64,000 nt of DNA, from NCBI GenBank assembly GCA_902628635.1, contig CACONQ010000001.1:62001-126000 (forward strand). Reading direction: 5' to 3'. The translations under genes and the position numbers were made by a program. Numbering within the stretch: position 1 is the first letter of the stretch; every line of letters starts with the position of its first letter. The notes beneath the pieces were generated by a model, which saw only the letters and a program-made list of their open reading frames with translations, was not told the origin of the DNA and did no database searches. The DNA is from an uncultured Pelagibacteraceae bacterium (GTDB taxonomy: Bacteria > Pseudomonadota > Alphaproteobacteria > Pelagibacterales > Pelagibacteraceae). Shown piece after piece: positions 56,876 to 60,871 of this stretch.

Positions 56876-57787
56876 TTAGATTGCTAACCTGTATGCAAAA
56901 TTTTTACCCAAATTTTCTTTAAGTTCATTATTAAATCTTGCTGCCTCAGCGCCATCAATAATCCTATGATCATAAGATAAAGATAAAGGTAGCATAATTC
57001 TCTCGTTAAATTTTCCTCCTGAGTGCGAATGAACTTTTCTCAACTTTCCGATCCCTAAAATGGCTACCTCAGGAAAATTAATTATAGGAGTAAAAAAAGA
57101 GCCTCCTATGCCGCCAAGGCTGGTTATAGTCATTGAGCCACCGTAAAAATCCTTTTTATCTATCTTAAGTTTTCTGCACTTATCACTTGTCGTTTTGAGT
57201 TCTTCTGCGATTTGATTAATATTTTTTTGATCCACATTTCTTATCTTTGGCACCATCAAACCATGCTCAGTATCAACAGCTATACCAATATGAAAATATT
57301 TTTTGATTGTCATTTTTCCGTTTTCTATGTCATCAATTGAACTATTAAAAGATGGAAACTTTTTTAAAGTTGCAACTAAAGCTTTAGTTATAAAAGCAAG
57401 AGGTGTTATTTTCTTTTTTTCACCAGTATGCAAATCCTTAAGTGAATTTCTAAAATTTTCCATATCTGTAACATCTGCTTCATCATGGTTTGTTACATGA
57501 GGAATCGTATTCCATGCGTGAGAAAGGTGTACAGCAGCTATTTTTTTAACTCTTGGAATATCTTTGATTTCTATCTCGCCAAAATCTGAATGGGTAAATT
57601 CTGTTTTGAACTCATTTTTACTTTGTGTATTTTTTTCTTGACCAACATGTTTAACAAATTTTTTAATATCCTCCTCAACTACTCTACCATCTCTTTGTGA
57701 ACCTAATACTAAGTTGATATTAACTCCTAATTCTCTAGCAAACTTTCTGGTTTTTGGACTTGCTGGAACTCTTTTTTTTTCATTCAT
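56876..57787 (-). CDS. aceF: Dihydrolipoamide acetyltransferase (E2) lacking a lipoyl domain
   Basis: 303 residues. It begins almost immediately with the peripheral subunit-binding domain (PASPKTRKFARELGVNINLV then RDGRVVEEDI), a ~40-residue linker, and the catalytic acetyltransferase domain (KDIPRVKKIAAVHLSHAW, GIAVDTEHGLMVPKIRNVD, SLGGIGGSFFTPIINFPEVA, and SYDHRIIDGAEAARF with the catalytic His). Typical E2 proteins have one to three lipoyl domains first; none exists here, and the upstream ORF ends 3 nt before the start, so nothing was missed. The lipoyl domain is on the neighbouring E1. Confidence 0.93.
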   Translation of the reverse strand: MNEKKRVPASPKTRKFARELGVNINLVLGSQRDGRVVEEDIKKFVKHVGQEKNTQSKNEFKTEFTHSDFGEIEIKDIPRVKKIAAVHLSHAWNTIPHVTNHDEADVTDMENFRNSLKDLHTGEKKKITPLAFITKALVATLKKFPSFNSSIDDIENGKMTIKKYFHIGIAVDTEHGLMVPKIRNVDQKNINQIAEELKTTSDKCRKLKIDKKDFYGGSMTITSLGGIGGSFFTPIINFPEVAILGIGKLRKVHSHSGGKFNERIMLPLSLSYDHRIIDGAEAARFNNELKENLGKNFAYRLAI

Positions 57788-57790
57788 AAT

Positions 57791-60700
57791 TTATAATTTG
57801 CTTGGAAAAGATCTTTTTGTATCAATATTATATTTTTTTATTGCATCTTTGACTGGCTTAGATGAAATTAGTTGCTCATTTGACAGAACACTTAGTGCAT
57901 ATGTAACTATGTGTTCTTTATCAACCTCAAAGAATTTTCTCAAATTTTTTCTTGTATCACTTCTTCCAAAACCATCAGTTCCTAGTGAATAAAAACTATT
58001 TTTTACAAAAGGTCTTATTTGCTCTGAATGACTTCGCATATAATCAGAAGCTGCCAAGACAGGGCTATTTGATTGGCCCAAACATTGTTCTACATATGAA
58101 GCTTTATTTTTTTCATCTGGATTTAAAAGATTGTATCTTTCAGTTTCCATACCATTTCTCGCAAGCTCATTAAAACTAGTTACACTCCAAATTTCACTAT
58201 CAATTCCATATTCATTTTGTAGTATTTCAGCACCACTAATAATTTCTCTTAAAATTGCACCAGATCCAATTAGCTGAATTTTTGTTTTTTTATTTTTATT
58301 AAATTCTTTAAACTTATACATGCCCTTTAAAATTCCCTCCTCACATCCTTTATCTTTTGGCATAGCAGGATGAGGATAATTTTCGTTCATAGTTGTAATG
58401 TAATAAAATATATTCTCTTTTTTTTCATGCATACGTCTAAGTCCTTCTCTAAAAATTACAGCAAGTTCGTAAGCAAAGGTTGGATCATAAGAAATACAAT
58501 TTGGTATAGTAGAGGCTAGAAGATGACTATGTCCATCCTGATGTTGTAATCCCTCACCTGCCAAAGTAGTCCTACCTGAGGTGGCACCAATTAAAAAACC
58601 TCTAGCTTGACTATCACCTGCTGCCCAAGCAAAGTCTCCAACTCTTTGAAAACCAAACATAGAGTAAAACAAGTATATTGGTATCATTTCAATATCATGA
58701 TTTGTATAAGACGTTCCTGCAGCAATCCAAGATGCCATTGATCCTGCCTCGTTAATTCCTTCTTCTAGAACTTGACCTTTTTTATCTTCTCTATATGAAC
58801 TTAATTGCTCAGAGTCCTCTGGTTCATATTTTTGTCCCTCGTGAGCGTAAATTCCAATTTTTTGAAAAAAACCTTCCATACCAAATGTTCTAGCCTCGTC
58901 AGGTATAATTGGCACAAGTCTAGGTGCAACATTTTTATCTCTTAGAAGGTTTGTTAATAATCTTACTAATGCCATTGTTGTTGACATCTCTTTTTTTCCT
59001 GTTGACTCTTTTAAAAAATCAAAAATATCTTTTTGAGGAGCTTTTATTTGCTTGGCATAAGTAGTTCTTTCTGGAATGAAGCCACCCAGTTTGATTCTAC
59101 GATCTTTTAAATATTTAATTTCCTCAGAATTTTCATCAGGTCTAAAATATTGAATTTCCTCTACCTGCTTGTTGGTTAGTGGAACGTCAAATCTATCTCT
59201 GTAATACATTAAATCTTCAACACCCATTTTTTTTTGCTGGTGGGTGGTATTAACACTTTCTCCTGTTTTTCCCATTCCATATCCCTTAATAGTTTTTGCA
59301 ATGATTACAGTAGGTCTACCTTTGTTTTTTGAAGCTTGATCATAAGCTGCATAAACTTTATGTGGGTCGTGGCCCCCTCGGTTTAATCTCCATATATCCT
59401 TATCAGAGAGAGTGGATACCAGTTCCTTTGTCTCAGGATATTTGCCAAAAAATTTCTCTCTAACATATAAACCATTTCTTGCTTTAAAAGCTTGATATTC
59501 ACCATCGACTGTTTCATTCATTATTTTTACCAGGTGTCCAGTTTTATCTTTTGCTAATAAAGGATCCCAATAAGAACCCCATATTACTTTAATCACATCC
59601 CAGCCTGCTCCTCTAAAAATACCCTCTAGCTCTTGAATAATTTTTCCATTTCCTCTAACTGGACCGTCTAATCTTTGAAGATTGCAATTAACAACAAAAA
59701 TTAAATTATCTAAGTTTTCTCGTGCTGCTAATCCAATAGCTCCCATAGACTCTGGTTCATCCATTTCACCGTCACCAAGAAATGCCCATACTTTTCTACC
59801 TTCATCTTTTATAAGTCCTCTATTAATTAAGTATTTCATAAATCTAGCTTGGTAGATTGCCAACATAGGACCTATTCCCATAGAGACAGTTGGGAACTGC
59901 CAAAAATTTGGCATGAGCCAAGGATGTGGATATGAAGATAAACCACCTGGGTTTACCTCTTGCCTAAAATTATCTAATTGTTTTTCGCTCAACCTTCCTT
60001 CTAAGAATGCTCTGGCATACATACCAGGAGCACTGTGACCTTGAAAATATATTAAGTCTCCTCCAAACTTATTGTTCTTTGCTCTCCAAAAATGATTCAT
60101 ACCAACGTCATATAAAGTTGCAGCAGATGCAAAAGTTCCAATGTGACCACCAAGTTCAGGAAATTTTTTATTTGCTCTCACGACCATTGCAGCAGCATTC
60201 CATCTAATTAAAGATCTTATCCTTCTCTCAATATTTTGATCACCAGGAGATTTAGTCTCTTTATCTGGAGATATAGTGTTTACATATGGTGTATTCCTTG
60301 AAAGTACTAAATCTGAACCTTGTCTATATGAATGCTCAATTAGTTGTTTGATTAAAAACTGAGCCCTTTTACTTCCATCTGTTTCTAAAACGGAGGATAA
60401 TGAATCTATCCATTCTTTTGTTTCGATTGGATCAATATCTCCATCTTTGACAACGTTTGAGATTCGATCCTCAGCAATTTTTATAGTTTCTTTTTGTATT
60501 TGTGGTTGGGGTATATCTTTTATCTCTTTTTGAATTTCAGTTTCTTGAACATGTTTTATCTCTTTATGAATATTTTTTTCTGCCTCTTCGATTAAATTTT
60601 TTGTACTTTTTGGAATTTCATCTGGTGATACCTTTCCATTTCCCTCAACTTCTAAAATTAAATCTCCTTTAGAAACCTTGTCTCCTACTTTAACATTAAT

Positions 60701-60871
60701 ATTTGATATTTTACCTTCAACTGTTGAAGGAACTTCTACACTAGATTTATCACTTTCAAGTGTGACCACTGGATCATTTTTCTTTATACTCTCACCAGCT
60801 TTTACTATGACTTCAATTATTTCTACTTGTTCAAAATCACCTATATCTGGAACTTTTAACTGAGTTGACAT
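57791..60871 (-). CDS. aceE: Pyruvate dehydrogenase E1 (AceE type) with N-terminal lipoyl domain
   Basis: 1026 residues from the ATG at 60871 (the GTG at 60886 is an alternative). Residues ~1-80 are a lipoyl domain (LKVPDIGDFEQVEIIEVIVK; lipoyl-Lys in TLESDKSSVEVPS), then a charged linker of ~65 residues rich in Lys, Glu, Gln and Pro, then a full homodimeric E1: GGHIGTFASAATLYDVGMNHF, the ThDP motif region AFLGDGEMDEPESMGAIG to VVNCNLQRLDGPVRGNG, YIPDEARTFGMEGFF-like region and GATSGRTTLAGEGLQHQDGHS. E. coli AceE is 887 residues without a lipoyl domain. It decarboxylates pyruvate and acetylates the lipoyl arm, here its own. Confidence 0.93.
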   Translation of the reverse strand: MSTQLKVPDIGDFEQVEIIEVIVKAGESIKKNDPVVTLESDKSSVEVPSTVEGKISNINVKVGDKVSKGDLILEVEGNGKVSPDEIPKSTKNLIEEAEKNIHKEIKHVQETEIQKEIKDIPQPQIQKETIKIAEDRISNVVKDGDIDPIETKEWIDSLSSVLETDGSKRAQFLIKQLIEHSYRQGSDLVLSRNTPYVNTISPDKETKSPGDQNIERRIRSLIRWNAAAMVVRANKKFPELGGHIGTFASAATLYDVGMNHFWRAKNNKFGGDLIYFQGHSAPGMYARAFLEGRLSEKQLDNFRQEVNPGGLSSYPHPWLMPNFWQFPTVSMGIGPMLAIYQARFMKYLINRGLIKDEGRKVWAFLGDGEMDEPESMGAIGLAARENLDNLIFVVNCNLQRLDGPVRGNGKIIQELEGIFRGAGWDVIKVIWGSYWDPLLAKDKTGHLVKIMNETVDGEYQAFKARNGLYVREKFFGKYPETKELVSTLSDKDIWRLNRGGHDPHKVYAAYDQASKNKGRPTVIIAKTIKGYGMGKTGESVNTTHQQKKMGVEDLMYYRDRFDVPLTNKQVEEIQYFRPDENSEEIKYLKDRRIKLGGFIPERTTYAKQIKAPQKDIFDFLKESTGKKEMSTTMALVRLLTNLLRDKNVAPRLVPIIPDEARTFGMEGFFQKIGIYAHEGQKYEPEDSEQLSSYREDKKGQVLEEGINEAGSMASWIAAGTSYTNHDIEMIPIYLFYSMFGFQRVGDFAWAAGDSQARGFLIGATSGRTTLAGEGLQHQDGHSHLLASTIPNCISYDPTFAYELAVIFREGLRRMHEKKENIFYYITTMNENYPHPAMPKDKGCEEGILKGMYKFKEFNKNKKTKIQLIGSGAILREIISGAEILQNEYGIDSEIWSVTSFNELARNGMETERYNLLNPDEKNKASYVEQCLGQSNSPVLAASDYMRSHSEQIRPFVKNSFYSLGTDGFGRSDTRKNLRKFFEVDKEHIVTYALSVLSNEQLISSKPVKDAIKKYNIDTKRSFPSKL

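Follow-up and report, generated by a model that had tools for sequence, protein, structure and literature searches.

The pyruvate dehydrogenase (PDH) genes described here, aceE and aceF, lie in a 64,000-nt stretch of DNA from an uncultured Pelagibacteraceae (SAR11) bacterium (contig CACONQ010000001.1, positions 62,001-126,000; hereafter the window, to whose positions all coordinates refer). The two genes, which encode the E1 and E2 subunits of the complex, are adjacent on the minus strand, and 3 bases separate the stop of one from the start of the other. A first-pass annotation had described an AceE-type E1 of 1026 aa that opens with a complete lipoyl domain (LD), its lysine in ESDKSSVEVP, next to a 303-aa E2 that starts with the subunit-binding domain and has no LD. 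The coordinates it gave for both genes proved exact, and the Pfam and NCBIfam equivalog models applied to the two proteins, TIGR00759 among them, bore out both descriptions (Table 1).

Table 1. Features of the aceE-aceF locus in the window.
Feature	Position	Strand	Basis
aceE, homodimeric-type pyruvate dehydrogenase E1 with N-terminal LD	57791..60871	-	1026 aa; TIGR00759, PF17831, PF00364
E1 LD, residues 4-74; lipoyl lysine K42 codon 60746-60748	60650..60862	-	PF00364, ESDKSS motif
Flexible linker from LD to E1, about residues 79-143 (predicted)	60443..60637	-	AlphaFold2 pLDDT; linker lengths and sequences of relatives
Conserved linker motif IPKSTKNLIEEAE, residues 86-98, predicted helix	60578..60616	-	Regular expression; AlphaFold2 model
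AceE catalytic body, including N-terminal segment binding the E2 subunit-binding domain	57791..60442	-	Catalytic residues; 9h1n peptide match
aceF, LD-less dihydrolipoyl transacetylase E2	56876..57787	-	303 aa; PF02817 and PF00198, no PF00364
Peripheral subunit-binding domain, E2 residues 7-41, extreme N-terminus	57665..57769	-	PF02817 (E3_binding), 39.5 bits
E2 catalytic domain, residues 75-293, with SYDHRIIDG	56909..57565	-	PF00198 (2-oxoacid_dh), 252.6 bits

An AceE with a lipoyl domain beside an AceF without one

Judged by its sequence, the window E1 is a full-length, homodimeric AceE-type PDH E1. The aceE equivalog TIGR00759 matches residues 144-1024 with 1445 bits (cut-off 860), as expected of a complete AceE, PDH_E1_M matches residues 625-835 with 352 bits, and residues 144-1022 match E. 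coli E1 structures (1l8a and others). The protein is identical to E. coli AceE at all eight positions checked (H106, H142, E401, H407, E522, E571, Y599 and H640), which are catalytic histidines, glutamates and a tyrosine of that enzyme. Ahead of this body, Biotin_lipoyl (PF00364) covers residues 4-74 with 67.8 bits (cut-off 22.1, E 7.5e-19). This LD is of the PDH type (E2p), scoring 79 bits with TIGR01348 against 34 bits with sucB, the 2-oxoglutarate dehydrogenase (ODH) type, and its lipoyl-lysine motif reads ESDK42SSVEVP. In the AlphaFold2 model the beta-strands of the LD have a predicted local distance difference test score (pLDDT) of about 70-85, and across residues 96-142 the pLDDT is below 50, which suggests that the linker is largely disordered. 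The segment predicted to bind the E2 subunit-binding domain, residues 144-184, was recognised by its similarity to the N-terminal E1 peptide in 9h1n (E 8e-7, by sequence comparison only).

The E2 gave no lipoyl-domain match in a Pfam scan of its 303 aa, and with 314 bits it falls below the TIGR01348 cut-off of 552. Of the features that characterize an AceF it has the subunit-binding domain and the acyltransferase domain with its catalytic histidine, and lacks the one to three N-terminal LDs. Its predicted structure resembles the catalytic domain of E. coli E2p (4n72), and both R79, the equivalent of E. coli R407, and the catalytic H274 are invariant in 24 of 24 relatives, whether or not their E2 carries an LD.

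The E1 lipoyl domain is found throughout the family

In an order sample of 197 genomes, AceE was present in 134 of 144 Pelagibacteraceae and in none of the 53 genomes of the sister family (f2). All but two of the 134 AceE frames are about 1000-1130 aa, long enough for an added LD. The genes of 116 Pelagibacteraceae loci were read; these loci are not all independent, as some genomes occur twice (e.g., L004 and the window), and those with an LD-less E2 were deliberately over-represented for tree building. An LD was found on E1 in 115 of them. The exception (L192, from genome G185), one of the two short frames with 931 aa, is split by a frameshift within the linker, which leaves its LD in a different frame immediately upstream; the other short frame, of 944 aa, is known by length only. 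The fusion is also present in single-contig assemblies (e.g., G001, G003, G020 and G026).

Elsewhere in the class sample an AceE-type E1 is rare (6 genomes), and this scarcity, together with its absence from the sister family, fits either transfer or differential loss. Ten of the longest AceE frames outside the family, taken from among the matches listed in the class and phylum samples, were read, and none carried an LD.

Several variations of the locus were seen. Two tandem LDs, both with the lysine, stand on E1 in L203, L204, L209 and L210. A motif directly after the E1 LD, IP..TE.II..AE, was matched in 102 of 116 E1s but not in any E2; the region is modelled by AlphaFold2 as a helix (residues 87-108), a shorter form lies between the two LDs of the two-domain E1s of g4 (L203, L209), and the motif may serve for docking or as a spacer. 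L221, L222 and L223 encode an additional AceE, a paralogue that has no LD and is shorter (about 890-900 aa); H640 is replaced by Q or S in all three and H142 by Q in one, and judging from these substitutions the paralogue may be something other than a pyruvate dehydrogenase. Further frame breaks split the E2 in L044 and cut it short in L065; these, like the frameshift in L192, may be real or due to sequencing errors. Although at least 90% complete, the Pelagibacteraceae genomes G040, G076, G105, G140, G142, G154, G165, G173, G177 and G183 are without aceEF, as is the sister family; G040 and G142 have an E1alpha-like frame of about 327-352 aa. An Rfam scan for an RNA element upstream of the window genes matched only tRNA.

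The E2 lipoyl domain was lost repeatedly

In most family members E2 carries an LD too, its frame being about 415-455 aa long. Of 131 E2 matches in the family, 25, about a fifth, have a frame shorter than 340 aa, the size of an LD-less E2 (one is cut by a contig end). When the LD state of E2 was mapped on the E1 tree, nine changes were required (FastTree, and also IQ-TREE with 60 rows), and on a tree of the E2 catalytic domain, eight. A single LD-less clade was rejected by the approximately unbiased test on both (p 3e-38 and p 3e-9, respectively). Change counts alone give no direction; however, the outgroup AceFs carry LDs, and the changes are therefore read as losses. This puts the number of independent losses of the E2 LD at about eight or nine; no intact gene was seen to have lost the E1 LD.

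SAR11 bacteria recombine, and a few LD-less rows shift between the E1 and the E2 trees (L083, L188), as would be expected if the E2 LD had been lost only once and recombination had then distributed the LD-less form. We consider this improbable: the LD-less E2 catalytic domains themselves do not form one clade, and the LD-less E2s open with short leaders, directly before the subunit-binding domain, that are dissimilar from one another and fit separate deletions.

The E1 linker is on average 57 residues long where E2 is LD-less and 48.5 residues where E2 has an LD. That a longer linker makes up for an absent E2 arm is not claimed, the association not being significant once phylogeny was taken into account (7 independent pairs, median p 0.5).

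The E1 domain as probably the only arm dedicated to PDH

The genome that contains the window (989 kb in 26 contigs) is 84% complete. It has a single 2-oxoacid_dh domain, that of the E2 described here, and two Biotin_lipoyl domains, one being the E1 LD and the other lying in a frame of 141 aa, about the length of a BCCP. SucB and E3 were searched for in this 84%-complete genome and not found, and presumably fall in its missing part; the single E3 of its relatives adjoins sucB, so that one missing block would account for both. That E3, of about 466-471 aa, serves the LD-less relatives and stands beside sucB in those compared (e.g., G017, G115 and G128).

Eight of eight near-complete genomes with an LD-less E2 (91-99%), among them the nearest relative (G115, 87% E2 identity), have exactly three LDs each, those of E1, SucB and BCCP, and in the 12 family genomes searched that are complete or nearly so the only acyltransferases found were SucB and AceF. 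Since these near-complete LD-less relatives have no further PDH LD, the one arm that PDH has to itself in them is that of E1, and very probably the E1 LD is also the only LD dedicated to PDH in the window organism, as had been proposed in the first-pass annotation.

The E1 LD also has the marks of a domain in use. All 115 first E1 LDs have the lipoyl lysine, as do 4 of 4 second E1 LDs and 77 of 77 first E2 LDs; it is missing from all four second E2 LDs. The Glu and Asp preceding it are invariant in 40 of 40 E1s. In E. coli the key contact between LD and E2 is made by E242/D244 of the LD with R407 of E2 (PMC8421416), and the acidic pair of the E1 LD and R79 of the E2 are the equivalents of these residues. 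Second E2 LDs without the lysine (e.g., EDEENAYEIP) occur in L201, L202, L208 and L209, and by their sequences look like dead arms.

An E1 LD that is inert or merely regulatory, with PDH borrowing the LD of SucB (the E2 of 2-oxoglutarate dehydrogenase) in trans, would have the means at hand, as every near-complete LD-less relative encodes an LD-bearing SucB and a single shared E3; a hybrid PDH-ODH complex is moreover mentioned for Corynebacterium in one account (PMC7568260). From an inert domain, however, neither an invariant lipoyl lysine nor two invariant flanking acids would be expected. The E2p-type score of the E1 LD also speaks against this explanation, as do the presence of the E1 LD in all intact genes that were examined and the repeated loss of the E2 LD, and we regard it as unlikely, somewhat more so than spread by recombination. 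Less credible again is that the 16% of the window genome not sequenced hides another PDH E2, one that bears an LD; SucB and E3 have indeed escaped the assembly, but the three-domain inventory of the eight LD-less genomes and the 12 genomes with just two acyltransferases speak against it. Finally, an assembly or amplification artefact joining lipoyl-E2 sequence to aceE, for which one could invoke the fragmentation of the assembly AG-912-F15 (L004), the closest public record, can be dismissed because the same fusion recurs in nearly all loci read, from many genomes, single-contig ones included. Hence both findings that the first-pass annotation had named as fatal to its proposal failed to appear: no second lipoyl-bearing aceF exists in the sequenced part of the genome or in the eight near-complete relatives, and no assembly join was found.

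Origin of the E1 lipoyl domain

In a tree of LDs, those of E1 group with the family's E2 LDs and apart from the SucB LDs, the outgroup AceF LDs being placed on a starred branch of their own; a single clade of E1 LDs was not rejected (p 0.29), though not established either, with this alignment of 78 columns and a tree in which many forks are weak. The simplest reading is that the E1 LD arose as a copy of the organism's own E2 LD, made within the operon. The LD had at first been thought to have moved from E2 to E1. As a net result this holds; a simple move, however, is at odds with the finding that many relatives have an LD on both proteins, and the family-wide fusion and the later E2 losses point instead to a relocation in two steps, in which the LD would first have been added to E1 and the E2 LD then repeatedly lost.

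Discussion

Taken together, we consider it very likely that the window encodes a working, E. coli-type PDH complex with its swinging arm on E1, in which the E2 arm was lost after E1 had gained an LD. In such a complex the E2 core would hold E1 and E3 through the subunit-binding domain, to which the N-terminal segment of E1, placed directly after the LD linker, would bind. The LD would hang from E1 on a mostly disordered linker of about 62 residues, be reductively acetylated at an E1 active site, reach an active site of the E2 core, pass its acetyl group to coenzyme A, and be reoxidised by the shared E3, which relatives encode beside sucAB. On a linker of this length the LD could reach its own or the partner E1 active site, the core and E3; judging from the model, acetylation in cis or in trans would be permitted, so that the cis route proposed in the first-pass annotation is a possible one. 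As for its history, AceE would have acquired an E2p-type LD in a Pelagibacteraceae ancestor, most likely as a copy from that ancestor's own E2; this would have made the E2 LD redundant, and some eight to nine independent deletions would have followed, the window genome being one case. That a PDH with its sole arm on a homodimeric E1 evolved in SAR11 in this way, through one gain on E1 and about eight or nine parallel deletions of the E2 arm, seems likely to us.

Some points weigh against this interpretation. With the window genome 84% complete and its SucB and E3 missing, its own LD inventory is incomplete, and the SucB LD may also serve PDH. The basic residues that contact the LD in E. coli, K391 and K396, are mostly acidic here, LD-bearing relatives included. 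The LD tree, based on a short alignment and with many weak forks, does not single out the source of the E1 LD. The lipoylation of K42, the catalytic route, the origin of the LD by copying and the number of arms per complex are what we infer from the evidence above.

Arms carried by subunits other than E2 have been described. In the E. coli PDH the LDs are on E2 (PMC8421416). The complex of the window would resemble this system, with its homodimeric AceE and cubic 24-mer AceF, in the E1 and E2 catalytic families, the E1 N-terminal segment, the E2 subunit-binding domain and the catalytic residues, and differ from it in having one PDH LD, on E1. In Mycoplasma hyopneumoniae the lipoylated subunit is E3 (PdhD), as determined by mass spectrometry (PMC7873978); there too the arm is off E2, on E3 instead of a homodimeric-type E1, where the SAR11 arm is placed from sequence. 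The same paper cites an LD in the PDH E1beta of Zymomonas mobilis (Ute et al. 1999, cited in PMC7873978) and E3s with a lipoyl domain in Neisseria meningitidis and Alcaligenes eutrophus. Zymomonas and SAR11 are both alphaproteobacterial with an LD on E1; however, the E1 of Zymomonas is alpha2beta2 and that of SAR11 a single-chain AceE, as its TIGR00759 score indicates. In Neisseria and Alcaligenes, as in SAR11, the LD is fused to a partner of E2, which is E3 in the former and E1 in the latter. The Zymomonas E1beta LD is an extra one, not the sole arm, and Neisseria and Alcaligenes retain the LDs of their E2. In the literature covered, with subscription papers mostly outside its scope, there was no report of an LD on AceE and none linking SAR11 or Pelagibacter to a PDH lipoyl domain, the few co-mentions being off-topic; copies of SAR11 aceE are mentioned without domain analysis in the relevant part of one paper (PMC10030771). 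Thus, LDs off E2 were already known on E3 and E1beta, and what appears to be new here is an LD on AceE.

Textbook active-site coupling assumes arms tethered to the E2 core, and in SAR11, one of the ocean's most abundant groups of bacteria, the tether of this central enzyme would have changed owner. Where the arms per complex in E. coli follow the number of E2 chains, those of SAR11 should follow the E1 chains bound, so that E1 occupancy would set the number of arms. If true, the family would amount to an experiment replicated by nature, with the outcome that PDH can work without tethering its arm to the E2 core. With the E2 arm lost recurrently and the E1 arm never lost from an intact gene, which tether is needed, and why, becomes directly testable, and relatives with both arms, with extra E1 arms or with a dead second E2 arm provide natural points of comparison.

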